Shown in pieces: positions 1-29,501 of a stretch of DNA of 33,618 bases. The notes beneath the pieces were generated by a model. That model had not been told where the DNA came from and did not search any database. It saw only the letters and a program-made list of their open reading frames with translations. A program made the position numbers and the translations under genes. The stretch is from the NCBI GenBank assembly GCA_026692905.1, contig JAPLNL010000059.1:1-33618 (forward strand), read 5' to 3'. The stretch's first letter is position 1, and each line of letters begins with the position of its first letter. This stretch comes from Planctomycetota bacterium (GTDB lineage Bacteria; Planctomycetota; Planctomycetia; Pirellulales; Pirellulaceae).

Positions 1-183
1 AGGAAGAAAACTCGTAGCGAAACTCGTCAAGAGTTTCGGTTTCTGAAGTTAGCTCGCATGAGCCGAAAGTCTTGACGACTTTCGCTACGATTTAGAAATA
101 TCCGACAATTACTTGCAACGATTTGACAGGTTGTTTGCTACCTAGTGCTGCTCAATTAAGGCTGTTTAGAGACCGCGGCTTGA
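1..183. repeat. REP/BIME + mini-RAYT repeat unit A
   Basis: First of four 183-bp units (starts at 1, 184, 1083 and 1266; the last is truncated). Bases 14-88 form a BIME: GTAG (14-17), then stem CGAAACTC / GAGTTTCG around loop GTCAA (18-38), a small palindrome GCTCGCATGAGC (52-63), and an inverted hairpin CGAAAGTC / GACTTTCG around TTGAC (64-84) closed by CTAC (85-88). The remaining ~95 bp resemble the 5' end of the transposase gene joined to part of its 3' end. In this copy the would-be ATG reads ATA and a stop interrupts the short frame, so it is decayed. The left edge may be cut by the window boundary. Confidence 0.9.
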
Positions 184-366
184 AGGAAGAAAACTCGTAG
201 CGAAACTCGTCAAGAGTTTCGGTTTCTGAAGTTAGCTCGCATGAGCCGAAAGTCTTGACGACTTTCGCTACGATTTAGAAATGTCCGACAATTACTCGCA
301 ACGATTTGACAGGTTGTTTACTACCTGGTGCTGCTCAATTAAGGCTGTTTAGAGACCGCGGCTTGA
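184..366. repeat. REP/BIME + mini-RAYT repeat unit B
   Basis: Second 183-bp unit, nearly identical to the first. The BIME lies at 197-271 (GTAG 197-200, CTAC 268-271). After it comes a 23-codon frame starting ATGTCCGAC at 281, matching the N-terminus of the RAYT family (M-S-D-N-Y-S-Q-R). It runs directly into DNA matching the gene's 3' part (CAGGTTGTTTACTACCTGG). It is therefore a miniature derivative lacking the catalytic core, and probably non-autonomous. Confidence 0.9.
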
Positions 367-379
367 AGGAAGAAAACTC

Positions 380-454
380 GTAGCGAAACTCGTCAAGAGT
401 TTCGGTTTCCGGAGTTAGCTCGCATGAGCCGAAAGTCTTGACGACTTTCGCTAC
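380..454. repeat. REP pair (BIME) directly upstream of the RAYT gene
   Basis: Third copy of the paired hairpin, in register with the array (the unit begins at 367). GTAG is at 380-383 and CTAC at 451-454. Only 9 bp separate CTAC from the ATG of the transposase at 464, so the structure lies in its 5' leader and could act both as the element end and in control of its expression. The latter is an inference. Confidence 0.9.
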
Positions 455-463
455 AATTTAGAA

Positions 464-1057
464 ATGTTTGAGAAGTACTCGCAACGATTGAAACGATTGC
501 CGCCCGAATGTTATCGAGGTTTCGCTTGGGTTCATTGGACGTTGGCAATCGAAGATCGAAAGACGGGATGGCTCGATGCGAGGTACCTCTACAAGTTTCG
601 CGAATTGCTAACCCACGCAATGTTTCGCTATCAATTGGCTTGCCCAATCTATTGCCTAATGCCCGACCATCTCCATTTGTTGTGGACTGGTGTCGCCGAA
701 TCGTCCGATCAGCTCGTGGCGATGAAATCATTTCGGAAGGACATGAACGACTGCCTGGGAAGAATTGGTTTTAAGCTCCAGATTCAAGCATACGATCACG
801 TGCTGAAGGAAATGGAATTGGAGCAAATCGAGCTTGAGACAATGGTCGAATACATTGCGAGAAACCCTGAGCGTAAAAAACGAATCCCTGTCGATACCTT
901 TGCAACGTATCCATTCACAGGTTGTTTACTACCTGGTGCTGCTCAATTAAGGCTGTTTCAGGAACGCGGATGGGATGAGATTTGGCGGACGCTCGCGTTT
1001 CTAAAACGGACAGAGTGCTTCCGACGTGAGGACCCGAAGTATGGAACATCGCTTTAG
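464..1057 (+). CDS. REP-associated tyrosine transposase (RAYT, IS200-like Y1_Tnp)
   Basis: A 197-aa HUH-superfamily single-strand transposase of the RAYT type. The HUH pair is H69-L-H71 in M-P-D-H-L-H-L-L-W. The likely catalytic Tyr110 sits in Q-A-Y-D-H-V-L, followed by the family's V-E-Y-I-A-R-N-P helix at about 128-135. Length and motif order fit an intact enzyme. Known RAYTs cut single-stranded REP hairpins next to a GTAG/GGAG tetranucleotide, and exactly such GTAG hairpins flank this gene on both sides. ATG 464 lies 9 bp after the upstream BIME and has only a weak purine stretch (TTTAGAA) as RBS, which suggests low translation. The C-terminal part (about 151-165) is the segment also present in the miniature copies. 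The resident N-terminus (M-F-E-K) differs from theirs (M-S-D-N), so they descend from a sister copy. Confidence 0.92.
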   Translation: MFEKYSQRLKRLPPECYRGFAWVHWTLAIEDRKTGWLDARYLYKFRELLTHAMFRYQLACPIYCLMPDHLHLLWTGVAESSDQLVAMKSFRKDMNDCLGRIGFKLQIQAYDHVLKEMELEQIELETMVEYIARNPERKKRIPVDTFATYPFTGCLLPGAAQLRLFQERGWDEIWRTLAFLKRTECFRREDPKYGTSL

Positions 1058-1082
1058 CACGTCTAATTTCATGGTGCCTTGA

Positions 1083-1265
1083 AGGACGGAAACTCGTAGC
1101 GAAACTCGTCAAGAGTTTCGGTATCTGGAGTTAGCTCGCATGAGCCGAAAGTCTTGACGACTTTCGCTACGATTTAGAAATGTCCGACAATTACTCGCAA
1201 CGACTTCACAGGTTGCTTACTACCTGGTGCTGCTCAATAAAGGCTGTTTAGACAGCGCGGCTTGA
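1083..1265. repeat. REP/BIME + mini-RAYT repeat unit D
   Basis: 183-bp unit downstream of the transposase. The BIME is at 1096-1170 (GTAG 1096-1099, CTAC 1167-1170). A mini-RAYT follows, with an open 23-codon frame from about 1180 (M-S-D-N-Y-S-Q-R-L-H-R-L-L ...). It differs from unit B by several substitutions, but the start, stop and length of the short frame are kept. Confidence 0.9.
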
Positions 1266-1353
1266 ATGACAAAAACTCGTAGCGAAACTCGTCAAGAGTT
1301 TCGGATTCTGGAGTTAGCTCGCATGAGCCGAAAGTCTTGACGACTTTCGCTAC
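1266..1353. repeat. REP pair (BIME) E, truncated unit abutting the oxidoreductase gene
   Basis: Last copy of the array. GTAG is at 1279-1282 and CTAC at 1350-1353. The repeat ends exactly at CTAC and unique DNA follows. On the minus strand, CTAC reads GTAG, and its TAG (1352-1350) is the stop codon of the neighbouring oxidoreductase gene. Confidence 0.9.
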
Positions 1354-3440: not shown

Positions 3441-3629
3441 GTTGCTGGTTTTCGATAGCGTTGGAGAAGGAAACGACGGTTTGGAACCGCGTATTTTAAT
3501 CGAAAAGCAGGATGTTTGTCGGCGAACCTTCGACGGCATTTTGGCAAAAACGGCGACGCAGGGCGGTGGTGCCTTCTACGCACTGCTGTAAATACTTTCC
3601 CAACGATTTTAACTAAGCAATTCATTGCT

Positions 3630-3692
3630 CGGGAGGGTGAGGCTCCTGCCGAACCTTTGCATCGCTGGCTCGGCAGGAGCCTCGCCCTCCCG
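3630..3692. repeat. GC-rich hairpin repeat, family GGGAGGGTGAGGCTCCTGCC
   Basis: Inverted repeat with 23-bp arms at 3630-3652 and 3670-3692, one G-T wobble and a 17-nt loop. It lies in the intergenic region 3540-3835 between divergent genes. Related copies are at 17282-17340, 19697-19758 and 29393-29454. The 40 bp before it (about 3590-3629) also match the left flank of the 17282 copy, so the repeated unit is larger than the hairpin. No gene is seen in 3540-3835. Confidence 0.85.
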
Positions 3693-3835
3693 AATGTTTT
3701 TAAAGGGACTCGGCAGTACAAAGATGTTTGCAACGGCGCCTTCGGGGGGCCCCATTCTTGCTCGTGCTTGAGTATGATGTTATGAGTTAAGAATACTCTC
3801 CGTCTCCCCACCTTCACCGCCCCACGGTTTCCACG

Positions 3836-5892: not shown

Positions 5893-5906
5893 ATCATCCG
5901 ATTTTG

Positions 5907-5952
5907 TTACCCTCCCTCTGGGAGGGTCGAGCGAAGCGAGGGGAGGGTGCAG
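5907..5952. repeat. Half-copy of GC-rich palindrome family (GGGAGGGTCGAGCGAAGCGAGG)
   Basis: Contains CCCTCCCTCTGGGAGGGTC and then GAGCGAAGCGAGGGGAGGGTG. This matches, in inverse orientation, the right half of the composite elements at 12950-13068 and 14264-14381. It sits just before the truncated GNAT reading frame and could also act as a terminator hairpin for the upstream gene. Confidence 0.7.
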
Positions 5953-10308: not shown

Positions 10309-11859
10309 ATGACCAAAGTGCCCCAATCTGCTTTTTACCGTCTTAAGTTCCTGTTCGGTGTCGTGTTCGTTCTGAGCATCTTGAGCGACATACCTCTTTT
10401 CGGACAAGAGCCGACAGCGGGTTGGGCAGCCAGCCAACTGGTCGAAACCGTCTTGGCGAAAAAAGGCGTTGGAGAAACTTTTTCGGTCGATTTCGGTAGC
10501 TACCGAAAAGAGCTCGTCCAACTCCCAATTGGCGTCTTCGACTCCGGTGTTGGCGGCTTAACTGTCTTGGAAACATTGCTAACGTACGACCAGCACAACA
10601 ACGGCAATGGGCAACCTGGCTCAGATGGCGTTCCTGATTTTCAAAACGAACGCTTTGTCTATCTCGGTGACCAAGCCAACATGCCCTATGGAAACTATTC
10701 GGCATCAGGCAAAGAAGATTATCTTCGCGAACTGATTATGAAGGACGCGATCTTCCTTTTGGGGAATCGCTACTGGCCAAGCTCAAGAGCCAAGTCTCCA
10801 TCGTTCGATAAGCCTCCGGTGAAGGCCATCGTTATAGCGTGCAATACAGCGACGGCGTACGGACTCGCAGATATTCGAGCGGCCGTTGAGCGATGGAAGT
10901 TGCCGGTATTGGTTGTTGGCGTGGTCGAGGCGGGGGCTGATGCATTTGTGCAGGAGCTTCCAGCCGATGGAGAACCTAGCTCGGTGGCTGTGATGGCAAC
11001 TTTGGGGACATGCAGCAGTGGCGCCTACCCAAAAGCGATTGTGCGTGCAGCGGGCTTGGCGGGTAAACGCAATCCACTGGTGTGGCAACAAGGAAGTCTT
11101 GGACTAGCCGGCGCGATTGAGGGGAACTCAGCTTTTCTCAATAACGATTCCAACTCCAAAGACAGTGTCGTCGGGGCCGCAACGACATCGAACAGGTCCG
11201 TTTATCAGGGGCCAGCGGTCAATAACACACGAGCCCCGATCGATGTTGCTCTCGCGAAAGTCTATGGCTTCGAAGCAAATGGGTTGCTTGGTGAACCCGA
11301 ACGTCCAGAAACTTGGCGATTGAACTCCGTCGAAAACTATGTGCGATACGATGTTGTCTCATTGGTCGAGGGATATCGCAAATCCGGGGCTATGCAGCCG
11401 TTGGGCAAAGTCATTCTTGGTTGTACGCATTTTCCCTACGAAGCCAATCGTATATCGCAATGCCTGTCGCGATTAAGAGACTATCGCGATGCCCAGGGGC
11501 AGCAACCTTATCGCGATTTGATCGCCGAGCAAGTCACCTTGATCGATCCAGGCCAACTCACTGCGAGACAACTTTATCGCCAATTGTTCATCAAACGTCA
11601 GTTGGTTCGAGGCGAGTCCAAGCGGCCACCTTACGTTGAACGGATATTTCTGTCGGTCCCAGCGCCTGACGTGGCTAAATCGGGCTTGGCGGCAGACGGT
11701 GGCTTGACGAGCGCGTTCAAGTATGGGCGACTGGCTGGGAAACCTGAACAAGAGGACACCCACTATGTCCCACTTACCATCGACCTGCTGCCGGAGAGTT
11801 TGGTCGATCTATTGAAGAACCATTGCTCCAACATCTGGAAAGCCGTTCCGGCCAAATAA
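10309..11859 (+). CDS. MurI-like glutamate/aspartate racemase with signal peptide
   Basis: A 516-aa protein. Residues 1-32 form a signal peptide or anchor (basic R-L-K, then a long hydrophobic run, P-L-F-G-Q). The rest carries the glutamate racemase signatures in order: V-F-D-S-G-V-G-G (76-83), Y-L-G-D-Q-A-N-M-P-Y-G (118-128), the first catalytic Cys in A-C-N-T-A-T-A (C178), and the second in G-C-T-H-F-P (C372). MurI is normally about 265 aa and cytosolic. This protein has an Asp/Asn/Gly-rich insert at ~93-112, a Ser/Asn-rich insert at ~272-335, and a C-terminal extension of about 100 aa. Both cysteines are kept, so activity is plausible, but an extracytoplasmic location would be unusual. Divergent from the DUF1549 gene. 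No partner gene is obvious. Confidence 0.82.
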   Translation: MTKVPQSAFYRLKFLFGVVFVLSILSDIPLFGQEPTAGWAASQLVETVLAKKGVGETFSVDFGSYRKELVQLPIGVFDSGVGGLTVLETLLTYDQHNNGNGQPGSDGVPDFQNERFVYLGDQANMPYGNYSASGKEDYLRELIMKDAIFLLGNRYWPSSRAKSPSFDKPPVKAIVIACNTATAYGLADIRAAVERWKLPVLVVGVVEAGADAFVQELPADGEPSSVAVMATLGTCSSGAYPKAIVRAAGLAGKRNPLVWQQGSLGLAGAIEGNSAFLNNDSNSKDSVVGAATTSNRSVYQGPAVNNTRAPIDVALAKVYGFEANGLLGEPERPETWRLNSVENYVRYDVVSLVEGYRKSGAMQPLGKVILGCTHFPYEANRISQCLSRLRDYRDAQGQQPYRDLIAEQVTLIDPGQLTARQLYRQLFIKRQLVRGESKRPPYVERIFLSVPAPDVAKSGLAADGGLTSAFKYGRLAGKPEQEDTHYVPLTIDLLPESLVDLLKNHCSNIWKAVPAK

Positions 11860-12939: not shown

Positions 12940-12949
12940 CTCCAATAAA

Positions 12950-13068
12950 GTCATCCTCCCTCCGGGAGGGTCGGCCAGAGGCCGGGGAGGGTGAACTGAT
13001 TCGTGCAATTGCCGTGGGCACTTCACCCTCCCCTCGCTTCGCTCGACCCTCCCAGCGGGAGGGTGACT
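12950..13068. repeat. composite palindromic element, copy 1
   Basis: About 119 bp. The left block is CCTCCCTCCGGGAGGGTC, then GGCC ... GGCCGGGGAGGGTGAA. The right block is TTCACCCTCCCCTCGC, then TTCGCTCGACCCTCCC, AGCGGGAGGGTGA. Each block is itself palindromic and the blocks are inverse to each other. A full second copy is at 14264-14381, so the redoxin-ispF pair is bracketed by direct copies. Half copy at 5907-5952. Confidence 0.85.
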
Positions 13069-13121
13069 GTACAGACTAAGCTCCCAACTCAAAACTCCCA
13101 ACTCAAACAAAAGAACTCCAA

Positions 13122-14263: not shown

Positions 14264-14381
14264 GTCACCTTCCCTCGGGGAGGGTCGGCCTTTGGGCCGG
14301 GGAGGGTGAAGTGTCGGTGCAGACCGCGCTGGCACTTCACCCTCCCCTCGCTATGCTCGACCCTCCCAGCGGGAGGGTGAC
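14264..14381. repeat. composite palindromic element, copy 2
   Basis: About 118 bp, the same structure as 12950-13068, with paired differences in the inner hairpin (CTCGCTATGCTCGA here versus CTCGCTTCGCTCGA). It begins 27 bp after the ispF stop and fills most of the gap before the kinase gene. A terminator role is possible but not shown. Confidence 0.85.
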
Positions 14382-14543
14382 TAAACCGGGCGGATTATTC
14401 CGATAGATCCGATTTCAACGGTTTTTTTGAACTCTCGGCTGCTCTTTTGGTGAGCGGCGTTGGAACCTCACTCGCGGGTCGTCTAGGCTAGAATAGGAAA
14501 GGTTTCTGCCGCGTCGGCTTTTTGCAACCATTGACGGGTCTCC

Positions 14544-17172: not shown

Positions 17173-17388
17173 TAGGAAGCCGTCTCACTTTCGTTTTTGG
17201 AATTGCTTGCAATTTCAACGGGAGGGCGAGGCCACCGCGGTAAACATGTTTCCAACGAGTTTACCTAAGTCATTCATTGCTCGGGAGGGTGAGGCTCCTG
17301 CCGAACCTTTGCACCGTTGGCTCGGCATCCTCGCCCTCCCAATTTCCACCAAGCGTTTTGTTGGGTTCAAAAGTAAGACGCCCTCCTA
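17173..17388. mobile_element. MITE-like element with terminal inverted repeats, copy 1
   Basis: 216 bp with ends TAGGAAGCCGTCTCACTTTC and (inverted) TAGGAGGGCGTCTTACTTTT, agreeing at most positions. The inside matches the element at 29347-29501 at both flanks (GGAATTGCTTGCAATTTCAA on the left, CCAAGCGTTTTGTTGGGTTC on the right). An extra ~60 bp is related to the flank of the 3630 repeat, and a GC-rich hairpin lies at 17282-17340. No coding capacity. It fills the gap 17109-17431, where nothing else is seen. Confidence 0.7.
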
Positions 17389-17431: not shown

Positions 17432-18262
17432 TTAAACACGGCCGTGCTGCCGAAGCACTTCGAACAAAATAATAGAAGTACTCACCGACGCGTTAAGCGA
17501 GTCGATAGCACCATGCATTGGAATACGCACAGCGGTCACATCTTGCTTTACCCAGTTTTCACCGAGGCCATCGCTTTCGCTTCCCACGACGATGCTGACG
17601 GCCTTTTCATACTTGGGGGCAGTGTGGGGCAAAGTACCATCCACTCTGGCTGCGTAAATCGCGATCGAGCGTTCGGTTAACCAAGCCTGGATTTGTTTTG
17701 CGGAACCGACGGCCATGGGAACTCGGAACAATGCACCCAGGCTGGCGCGAATGGCGTTCGGGTTCCACATTTCGCTGACAGGGTCGCTTAGCAATACGGC
17801 GGACACGCCGGCCGCATCTGCCGTCCGCATAACGGCCCCTAGATTGCCAGGCTTCTCCATTCGGTCGAGAACCAAAAAGCACTTGGCATCGGTATCTTTT
17901 TTCGTGGGGGCAATTCGTTCGTCCAAAGTTTCCAAAGCCAGGCTAGGCTGACGGGCGACGGCAATCAGTCCAACATCGCGGTCGCCATATTGCAGTTTGG
18001 CCATGGCTGGCTTGGAGATGAGATTGATTCGAATCCCGGGGACCAGCGTTTGCCAGTCGGAGACCAAAAGGCGATGGGATTCCTCGGAGGTTTCCAAAAC
18101 AAAGAGCTCGGTGCATTCGATCCCGCCAGCATGAGCATGCCTTGCGATCGAATCCCCATCGATAATCATGAGGCCGCTATCGCGTCGTTCACGCGGATCG
18201 CGAAGAGAATTGGCGGCTTTGATCCGCTGGTTGCTAGGGCTAGAAATCGATTCGACAGTCAC
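17432..18262 (-). CDS. SpoU/TrmH-family RNA 2'-O-ribose methyltransferase
   Basis: About 276 aa from GTG 18262. The SPOUT motifs are clear: motif 1 N-L-G-A-V-M-R-T-A-D-A-A-G, motif 2 V-V-G-S-E-S-D-G-L-G, motif 3 I-P-M-H-G-A-I-D-S-L-N-A-S-V-S-T. The N-terminal substrate-binding domain opens with S-P-S-N-Q-R-I-K-A-A-N-S-L, the usual family start, so I prefer GTG 18262. The frame does run to ATG 18349, but the extra 29 residues are encoded by a repeated sequence also found next to tRNA-Leu. It methylates a ribose in rRNA or tRNA using SAM; the exact target cannot be told. Confidence 0.92.
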   Translation of the reverse strand: MTVESISSPSNQRIKAANSLRDPRERRDSGLMIIDGDSIARHAHAGGIECTELFVLETSEESHRLLVSDWQTLVPGIRINLISKPAMAKLQYGDRDVGLIAVARQPSLALETLDERIAPTKKDTDAKCFLVLDRMEKPGNLGAVMRTADAAGVSAVLLSDPVSEMWNPNAIRASLGALFRVPMAVGSAKQIQAWLTERSIAIYAARVDGTLPHTAPKYEKAVSIVVGSESDGLGENWVKQDVTAVRIPMHGAIDSLNASVSTSIILFEVLRQHGRV

Positions 18263-18314
18263 AGAACCCGACTTTCCAACGATGGTTGGACGAAAGAAAA
18301 ACCCTAGTTTACTT
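18226..18314. repeat. ~85-bp direct repeat R1 over the methyltransferase start
   Basis: Aligns with 19362-19446 over its whole length, with a few substitutions and one small gap. The core CGACTTTCCAACGATGGTTG is identical. R1 covers the first ~13 codons of the methyltransferase and its leader. The two copies have the same orientation and bracket the HNH gene pair. Confidence 0.8.
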
Positions 18315-18605
18315 GGGGGTTGCCTTGAAGCAACCTGAGTTGCCAACAAAAACGAGCTTGAAATTCGCTATCGAGTGAGCTCAGTGGGTCGCATCTGCCG
18401 AATGTAATCCACCAGAAAAAAAGGAAAAGTACGGAATTCGCAACGCATCACCTACGCAAAGTCCGGTTGTGCATTTGTCGACGGGCTAACGGCCAGTAGC
18501 TCTAATCTAAGTCTCCGATGACAACTCGCTGTCCAAGCGCGAGATGGCTGGCTTGTTCAAATCAAAAGTGCTGTCCACATCCACCCAATTGCGACCGCCG
18601 AGTAA

Positions 18606-19361: not shown

Positions 19362-19446
19362 GCTGGCTGCTTGGGCTAGCAATCGATCGGTTACAGAAAC
19401 CGACTTTCCAACGATGGTTGGACAAAAGAAAAATCTTAGTTTACTT
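19362..19446. repeat. ~85-bp direct repeat R2 beside tRNA-Leu
   Basis: Second copy of the sequence at 18226-18314. It ends 2 bp from the 3' end of the tRNA gene. On the minus strand it still reads like a decayed start of the methyltransferase (S-I-A-S-P-S-S-Q-Q in one frame against S-I-S-S-P-S-N-Q-R). Confidence 0.8.
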
Positions 19447-19448
19447 AG

Positions 19449-19530
19449 TGGCCGCTCGGGGAGTTGAACCCCGACGCCTCTCGGCACCAGATCCTAAGTC
19501 TGGCGTGTCTGCCAATTTCACCAAGCGGCC
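19449..19530 (-). tRNA. tRNA-Leu (anticodon UAG)
   Basis: The reverse strand folds as a class II tRNA. Acceptor arms are GGCCGCT (19530-19524) and AGCGGCC, with discriminator A at 19449. The D arm contains TTGGCAGAC. The anticodon stem CCAGA / TCTGG encloses loop CTTAGGA, giving anticodon TAG. A variable arm follows (TGCCGAGAGGCG), then the T arm CGGGG-TTCAACT-CCCCG. The long variable arm fits leucine. No CCA is encoded. Decodes CUN, mainly CUA. Confidence 0.95.
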
Positions 19531-19696
19531 GGAAGTTTTGAGCGGGATCGCTCCCTGCTCAAATCAATCTAAAACGTAGTCTAGTCTTAAATCGCTCGTC
19601 GTGCGACACCTGTTTTGTGTACTTCGCAAATCAATCGATCGATTTCCCTCTTCAATAAGCATGATTTTATCGACTTAACGCAGCCAAATTGTTGTT

Positions 19697-19758
19697 CGGG
19701 AGGGTGAGGCTCCTGCCGAACCGTTGCGTCCCCAGCTCGGCAGGAGCCTCGCTCTCCC
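19697..19758. repeat. GC-rich hairpin repeat (GGGAGGGTGAGGCTCCTGCC family), copy 3
   Basis: Arms at 19697-19719 and 19737-19758 pair almost fully. It lies in the gap between tRNA-Leu and the rhodanese gene (19531-19816). The rest of that gap shows no gene. Confidence 0.8.
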
Positions 19759-21798: not shown

Positions 21799-21907
21799 GA
21801 GGCATACGCTGTGTGTCTTGATCTTGGTATCCTGACACATGCGCGAGTATGTGGCCCCATCGGGCAACGCTGTGAAGCATTTTCCTATGCTGAAAACCGG
21901 CTTTTCT

Positions 21908-21976
21908 GTAGCGAAAGTCGTCAAGACTTTCGGCTGCAGTGCGCAAACCACCGAAACTCTTGAAGAGTTTCGCTAC
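21908..21976. repeat. REP pair (BIME) F, inverted orientation
   Basis: GTAG 21908-21911, stem CGAAAGTC / GACTTTCG around GTCAA (21912-21932), then stem CGAAACTC / GAGTTTCG around TTGAA (21952-21972) and CTAC (21973-21976). Same family as the RAYT-flanking array, but with the arm types in the opposite order. It lies in the sigma factor-birA gap. The birA reading frame stays open through it to ATG 21839. Confidence 0.9.
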
Positions 21977-22940: not shown

Positions 22941-23000
22941 GTAGCCAAGAGTTTCGGTCGTTTTGACGAGGTAGCCGAAAGTCTTAACGACTTTCGCTAC
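22941..23000. repeat. REP pair (BIME) G, left arm damaged
   Basis: GTAG at 22941-22944 is followed by only the distal half of the left hairpin (CAAGAGTTTCGG). The right hairpin CGAAAGTC / GACTTTCG around TTAAC (22976-22996) and CTAC (22997-23000) is intact. With copy F it brackets birA. Confidence 0.85.
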
Positions 23001-23017
23001 AGAAAATACTTGGCTAC

Positions 23018-29346: not shown

Positions 29347-29501
29347 TAGGAGGCCGTATCACTTTCTTTTTGGAATTGCTTGCAATTTCAACGGGAGAGC
29401 GAGGCTCCTGCCGAGCTTGATTTGTAAATGGCTCGGCAGGAGCCTCGCCCTCCCAATTCCCCCAAGCGTTTTGTTGGGTTCAAAAGTCAGACTGCCTCAT
29501 A
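29347..29501. mobile_element. MITE-like element with terminal inverted repeats, copy 2
   Basis: 155 bp. Left end TAGGAGGCCGTATCACTTTC, right end (inverted) TATGAGGCAGTCTGACTTTT. The inside is GGAATTGCTTGCAATTTCAA, then the GC-rich hairpin 29393-29454 (arms GGGAGAGCGAGGCTCCTGCC / GGCAGGAGCCTCGCCCTCCC), then CCAAGCGTTTTGTTGGGTTC. It is homologous along its full length to 17173-17388, which carries extra internal DNA. It contains no ORF. The gap from here to 29617 holds only one further hairpin. Confidence 0.7.

Follow-up and report, generated by a model that had tools for sequence, protein, structure and literature searches.

The window analysed here is a stretch of 33,618 nucleotides (nt) that makes up the entire contig C59 of the 5.96-Mb draft genome of a planctomycete of the Pirellulaceae (genome G000, whose other contigs are called C3, C5, C99 and so on), and its first 1353 nt carry a transposase gene embedded in an array of paired hairpins. 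This locus is very probably a REP/RAYT system, or REPtron, in which a REP-associated tyrosine transposase (RAYT) recognises its own repetitive extragenic palindrome (REP) and spreads inverted REP pairs (REPINs) in trans. We base this assignment on the anatomy of the locus, the copies of the REP across the genome, the kinship and fold of the protein, and the co-divergence of REP and RAYT, all of which support the proposal of an earlier note on this DNA that a planctomycete possesses a REP/RAYT system with a REP of its own. The system belongs to the REPtrons, which are already known; it is less expected that the spacers of the array are made of relics of the RAYT gene.

Anatomy of the Array and the REP Hairpin

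As the earlier note had described, an intact open reading frame (ORF) for a RAYT with HUH and Tyr motifs lies among five inverted pairs of GTAG-footed hairpins, which occupy positions 14–1353 of the window. Each REP is 25 nt long and consists of the GTAG foot followed by an 8-bp stem with the loop GTCAA. Two types exist, the C-type, GTAG-CGAAACTC-GTCAA-GAGTTTCG, and the G-type, GTAG-CGAAAGTC-GTCAA-GACTTTCG, and in all five REPINs of the array the former is on the plus strand and the latter on the minus strand, so that ten exact REPs surround the RAYT and the gene is flanked by GTAG-footed hairpins. The features are as follows:

14–88, REPIN 1: C-type REP, plus strand, 14–38; G-type REP, minus strand, 64–88; 25-nt spacer
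89–196, plus strand: segment holding mini-RAYT relic 1, the RAYT 5′ end fused to a 3′ segment
197–271, REPIN 2: C-type plus, G-type minus
272–379, plus strand: segment holding mini-RAYT relic 2
380–454, REPIN 3: C-type plus, G-type minus; 9 nt upstream of the RAYT start codon
464–1057, plus strand: RAYT, 197 amino acids (aa), between REPINs 3 and 4
1096–1170, REPIN 4: C-type plus, G-type minus; 38 nt downstream of the RAYT stop codon
1171–1278, plus strand: segment holding mini-RAYT relic 3, the most diverged of the three
1279–1353, REPIN 5: C-type plus, G-type minus; right edge of the array
21908–21976: a further REPIN of this family, dispersed and outside the array

When folded as DNA, a lone REP reaches −7.7 kcal/mol and the three complete pairs tested reach −24.1 to −28.1 kcal/mol, the REPIN 1 region (10–93) giving −27.6 kcal/mol with a z score of −7.1. 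The array is probably longer than what is visible, because C59 begins inside it and contig C5 terminates in the same repeat.

The REP Population of the Genome

The same REP is dispersed in high copy, as in REPtrons: allowing up to three mismatches it was found at 307 places in the genome (150 on the plus and 157 on the minus strand, a few near-palindromic places possibly being counted on both), against none for the reversed-pattern control, and the hairpin proposed from the window alone is therefore present elsewhere in the genome. The earlier note had also called for a count of single and paired copies, and among exact REP copies inverted pairs are the rule. There are 65 exact REPINs in the genome, and 49 of the 50 that were listed join a C-type to a G-type arm, the remaining one being C/C by hand count; outside the array, unlike arms are found in 44 of 45 listed exact REPINs (binomial p 2.6e-12). 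Of a sample of 30 exact REPs on contigs C3–C78 that lack an exact partner, 19 have a diverged inverted partner 39–45 nt away (start to start), and 11 stand alone, one of these at a contig end.

The spacer is 19 nt long in 25 of 28 dispersed REPINs examined, mostly with one consensus, and 18 nt long in the other three, whereas the five array REPINs have 25-nt spacers that differ in sequence from those of the dispersed copies. The idea that the REPIN spacer is a further-deleted RAYT found no support: when the spacers were aligned locally to the gene, 653 of 1000 shuffles did as well as the dispersed 19-nt consensus, and 54 of 1000 as well as the array spacer. Positions −4 to −1 of the dispersed REP sites are rich in T. 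A conserved CT that could mark cleavage next to the REP is not evident; at no position do more than 30 of the 85 dispersed sites have this dinucleotide.

The RAYT Protein

The catalytic set of the window RAYT comprises the HUH motif (HxH) at H69/H71, a single tyrosine at Tyr130 and Asn134 at Tyr+4, the combination that characterises RAYT/TnpA-REP proteins (class 2 TnpA-Y1), and H69, H71, Q106, Y130 and N134 are invariant across 28 aligned sequences. The asparagine corresponds to N119 of the E. coli protein (PMC6006769; here and below, published work is cited from the parts of each paper that were available). Class 3 TnpA-Y1 proteins occur mainly in Planctomycetes, Acidobacteria and Proteobacteria and have the signature Y----Q with a CnGA foot (PMC6006769); this signature is absent from the window, which has Asn at Tyr+4 and a GTAG foot.

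The NCBIfam model REP_Tyr_transpos (NF047646) matches the window protein with an E-value of 1.7e-8 and 34.5 bits, as well as every other member of a 13-sequence alignment (A1, which omits L098 of genome G019 and the fragments L107–L110). Pfam Y1_Tnp also matches all 13 members weakly, with a best E-value of 3e-4; for the window protein the value is 0.061, its 13.9 bits fail the gathering score of 23, and a Pfam search returned no match at an E-value of 0.001. The predicted structure (mean pLDDT 93.9) has as its top fold match in the PDB entry 4er8, in which E. coli TnpA-REP is bound to a REP hairpin (E-value 7e-8), followed by the ISDra2 and IS608 transposases.

In a 60-row tree, the 40 rows of the RAYT side, with the window protein among them, were separated with a support of 100/100 from 20 IS200-like/Y1 rows, and the protein thus does not group with the IS200/IS605 transposases, a grouping that the earlier note had named as fatal to its proposal. 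The RAYT side contains 35 RAYTs from planctomycetes and other members of the Planctomycetes–Verrucomicrobia–Chlamydiae superphylum, E. coli RayT, and four other proteins of the source genome; the 35 were chosen from 85 RAYT rows and the 20 IS200-like ones from 30 Y1 loci, and L112, L266, L273 and L274 yielded no HUH-Tyr stretch. Bootstrap values in this tree are unsettled, and the exact position of E. coli RayT, on a long branch, is uncertain (84/20). The closest neighbours of the window RAYT are CA13 and NAT61, at about 73–74% identity, and full-length RAYTs of the same genus are merely 50–56% identical to it; therefore, to judge from these identities, acquisition by transfer or an old paralogy is likely. 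The intact RAYT for this REP is single copy, with five matches in the genome of which one is intact and four are relic fragments.

REP and RAYT in Other Genomes

At least one copy of the window REP was present in 22 of 99 genomes, the source included, and a RAYT at least 66% identical to that of the window in three, where the REP counts are 307 (the source, G000), 505 (G038) and 5 (G060). In G038, the close RAYT sits in an array of at least 20 REPs with unlike arms in each pair. Seven genomes of the same genus whose RAYTs are more distant (G002, G005, G010, G016, G019, G020 and G025) have zero copies of the window REP, and in six of these, all except G020, a RAYT is flanked by other GTAG hairpins. 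A widened REP pattern gave 44, 177, 4, 58, 334 and 69 copies in six genomes whose RAYT is 60–73% identical, and none in two same-genus control genomes.

At 62 of 85 RAYT loci, two or more nearly identical GT[AG]G hairpins lie no more than 900 nt away, against 0 of 85 after mononucleotide shuffling. Furthermore, RAYT and REP distances correlate (Mantel r 0.52, p 0.0001) across the 57 of 85 loci that have at least two hairpins, no internal stop and more than 150 aa. This RAYT clade of planctomycetes and Verrucomicrobia contains many RAYT/REP pairs whose hairpins change gradually, and would be useful for mapping recognition.

Other RAYTs bind the single-stranded REP by means of GTAG and the hairpin and cut at nearby dinucleotides (PMC8266576). 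By analogy, the window RAYT would work as an HUH-Tyr single-strand DNA nuclease and ligase that recognises the GTAG foot together with the 8-bp hairpin, and it may spread REPINs in trans to new sites.

Mini-RAYT Relics between the REPINs

The array has a period of 183 nt and its RAYT-bearing unit measures 716 nt; every 183-nt unit derives from this longer REPIN-RAYT unit by internal deletion. It retains the REPIN, the first 26–30 nt or so of the RAYT, about 56 nt near the 3′ end (gene bases 451–506) and the downstream border, and two stretches of about 420 nt and, by difference, 110 nt are missing from it. Since the alignment of the mini units misplaces their 3′ part relative to the long unit, the match to the gene 3′ end rests on separate comparisons of gene and segment. 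In relic 2, as read from the letters, the retained RAYT start reaches a stop after 23 codons, and therefore no RAYT would be produced from it.

The three mini units of C59 and one on C5 align mutually without gaps, from which it follows that one deleted copy was probably multiplied. No mini unit turned up outside C59 and the end of C5 (40 of 187 candidates scored in one search and 10 of 10 in another). C5 closes with one unit and the start of a second, which overlaps the beginning of C59 with one mismatch, and this confinement points to local tandem growth rather than dispersal. We thus propose that the array may have grown locally by tandem duplication of the 716-nt REPIN and RAYT unit between REPINs, that one duplicated unit would then have lost most of its RAYT through two internal deletions, and that the resulting 183-nt unit would have multiplied. 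The succession of these steps is our inference, as is their origin in recombination or slippage.

A similar arrangement is found at locus L171 of a relative, whose RAYT is 66% identical and where the order is REPIN, mini-RAYT, REPIN, intact RAYT. In its mini-RAYT, bases 1–54 of the gene are fused to bases 548–597 at a common CAG, the two parts match the gene at 98% and 96% identity, and the deletion ends differ from those of the window. Among the 81 of 85 RAYT loci covered by the relic searches (L174, L192, L196 and L221, which have internal stops, being excluded), both gene ends in order occur in two, the window and L171, against 0 of 300 in a control of mismatched genes and flanks. RAYT self-fragments of any kind occur at 14 of the 81, some of them only as REP overlap and most as 3′ pieces, which recall the four cases of Nunvar and colleagues (PMC2817692), and no match to RAYT fragments was obtained in six stretches tested from other REP arrays of G038. 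Also in G038, loci L156 and L157 are large tandem arrays of REPINs that repeat roughly every 109–111 nt and are free of RAYT fragments, mostly joining C-type with G-type arms.

We found no account of RAYTs that have lost the middle but kept the two ends in the partial, mostly open-access literature at hand, which leaves their absence from the literature unproven. REPINs have been proposed to derive from REPs flanking an ancestral IS200-like element (PMC3116915), and deleted RAYT units beside an intact RAYT, in two species and with different deletion ends, are the type of intermediate that this idea predicts. One may go further and speculate, with considerable doubt on our part, that the unit of REPIN and RAYT acts as an autonomous transposon would and loses its gene through repeated internal deletions of the microhomology type, the minis multiplying alongside as surviving intermediates on the way from an IS200-like element to free REPINs.

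Evidence against the REPtron Assignment and Alternative Explanations

Several results weigh against the REPtron assignment. A hairpin equally common in relatives lacking a RAYT would, according to the earlier note, have spoken against its proposal, and on this point the results are mixed. On the one hand, 77 of the 96 genomes without a RAYT at least 66% identical have zero REPs, and counts of at least 20 occur in two of the three genomes with a close RAYT against four of the 96 without. On the other hand, the highest count of all belongs to a genome without one: G021, a draft of 620 contigs, has 663 REPs and no closely matching RAYT in its assembly, its only strong RAYT homologue being about 50% identical and having a different hairpin. 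G041, G032 (a single contig) and G049 have 91, 51 and 21 REPs, respectively, and also no close RAYT. In G021, a RAYT missed through an assembly gap is possible, and at the five loci looked at its REPs have the same 19-nt spacer type as the dispersed REPINs of the source; RAYT loss leaving REPs behind has been suggested in other cases (PMC3686654). The REPIN right after the G060 RAYT is C/C, and therefore unlike arms are not universal. The 34.5 bits of the window protein lie below the curated NF047646 cut-off of 80, an annotation threshold rather than a biological definition, which none of the 15 matches in the source genome passes; comparable genes may for this reason go unnamed. Shared descent alone can also yield the co-divergence of RAYT and REP. 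Finally, the array is not a recent source of the dispersed REPINs, because its spacers differ from theirs (25 against mostly 19 nt), and the dispersed copies look to have spread as complete REPINs, with no recent origin in the C59 array.

These spacers, together with the REP family that G021 carries without a closely matching RAYT, give some weight to the explanation that the window RAYT is idle or domesticated, the dispersed REPINs being an older population that came from another or a lost transposase and was passively inherited. We consider this unlikely, albeit the most serious of the alternatives. The source genome does encode other RAYT-like proteins, five of which outscore that of the window with NF047646, and one of the five, on contig C99, has a family REPIN about 30 nt past its stop codon; the other four (on C126, C54, C124 and C88), however, are without this REP in loci of 2.5–3.3 kb, and the C99 protein, by eye, reads Phe at the position of the catalytic Tyr. 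It retains HWH, and with Phe in place of Tyr we think it an unlikely mover. The window RAYT, in contrast, sits among ten exact REPs, and its 60–74% identical relatives carry the same REP or near variants. Far less credible is that the locus is an IS200/IS605-type insertion sequence with REP-like ends by coincidence: the enzyme superfamily is indeed shared, as the weak Y1_Tnp matches across A1 attest, but tree and fold place the protein with RAYTs, the genome has one intact gene plus relic fragments instead of several intact copies, and hundreds of hairpins lie mostly in inverted pairs away from the gene. We attach equally little probability to the idea that the segments between the REPINs are another repeat, gene-like by chance or recruited into the RAYT, which draws on the shortness of the 5′ part (20–26 nt matched) and its identity of 83–85%; in the window and at L171 alike the two gene ends are matched in their proper order, no mismatched pair did so among 300, and the L171 segments are nearly identical to their gene. 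The REPtron assignment thus remains the one we prefer.

As separate observations on the other RAYT-like genes of the source genome, the C99 locus (L161) has its REPIN and gene at 1677–1745 and 1775–2467, and the gene on C124 (L114) has on each side one of two identical copies of a hairpin unlike that of the window, GTAGAGCGATTGTCTCAATCGCT, at 1111–1133 and 1976–1998 on the same strand.

RAYT Stop Codons within GTAG Feet

In 22 of 80 complete RAYTs, the TAG of a hairpin's GTAG foot is itself the stop codon of the gene, as at L095, L168, L184, L204 and L212, against 19 of 578 other frames (Fisher p 1.8e-11), a comparison of related sequences in which the control open frames come from the same loci and some of them may not be genes. 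The count covers 80 of 85 loci, those with internal stops (L174, L192, L196, L221) and L214, with no stop within its contig, being excluded. In a further 14 RAYTs the gene ends in GTAG but no clean hairpin follows from it (60 of 578 controls), three have their stop inside a REP (4 of 578), and 41, the window's included, have neither a GTAG end nor a stop in a REP. REPs just past RAYT stops, and GTAG providing neighbouring ORFs with stop codons, have been published (PMC2817692, PMC3733652).

Comparison with Known Systems

The system resembles that of E. coli in having a single RAYT gene next to inverted pairs of GTAG-footed hairpins, and in a protein with HUH, Tyr, Asn at Tyr+4 and the same fold as TnpA-REP, despite 16% identity in the structural match. 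It differs in its perfect 8-bp stems, its 5-nt loop and the RAYT relics between the pairs, and the E. coli rayT stop codon, in turn, is TAA. Closer at hand, a 2013 report on Rhodopirellula baltica, a member of the same phylum, described GTAG repeats as well as tyrosine transposases flanked by repeats (PMC3733652), and this weakens the suggestion of the earlier note that such a system is unusual in a planctomycete; the R. baltica RAYT (L186) is about 54% identical to that of the window and its REP differs (GTAGTGGATCTTG...).

Nunvar and colleagues described four bacterial interspersed mosaic elements (BIMEs) containing the 3′ end of a rayt gene together with what follows it as far as the next REP (PMC2817692). 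RAYT gene sequence is likewise trapped between REPs there, although those BIMEs hold the 3′ end only, whereas the window minis keep both gene ends and lose the middle. The REPINs of Pseudomonas fluorescens SBW25 are also inverted REP pairs dispersed as a unit, with a single-copy RAYT (PMC3116915); the unlike spacers of array and dispersed REPINs set the window apart from them.

Other Features of the Window

Rfam at gathering scores and ARAGORN returned from the window only a tRNA-Leu, at 19448–19530. Beside it, 62-nt direct repeats (18258–18319 and 19390–19451, 89% identical) enclose two small ORFs, one of them HNH-like by eye. Two inverted copies of a REPIN region, at 21902–21962 and 22946–23006, bracket an ORF that looks, by eye, like a biotin ligase. 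A second palindromic family, GGGAGGGTGAGGCTCCTGCCGA with its complement, occurs at 3629–3693, 17194–17388, 19695–19758 and 29367–29501, the copies at 17194 and 29367 having longer flanks in common in the manner of a miniature element, and a third repeat family, CACCCTCCCCTCGC...GGGAGGGTGAC, lies at 5898–5952, 12946–13071 and 14264–14389. An ORF at 10309–11859 (516 aa) resembles, by eye, a glutamate racemase with an apparent N-terminal signal sequence.
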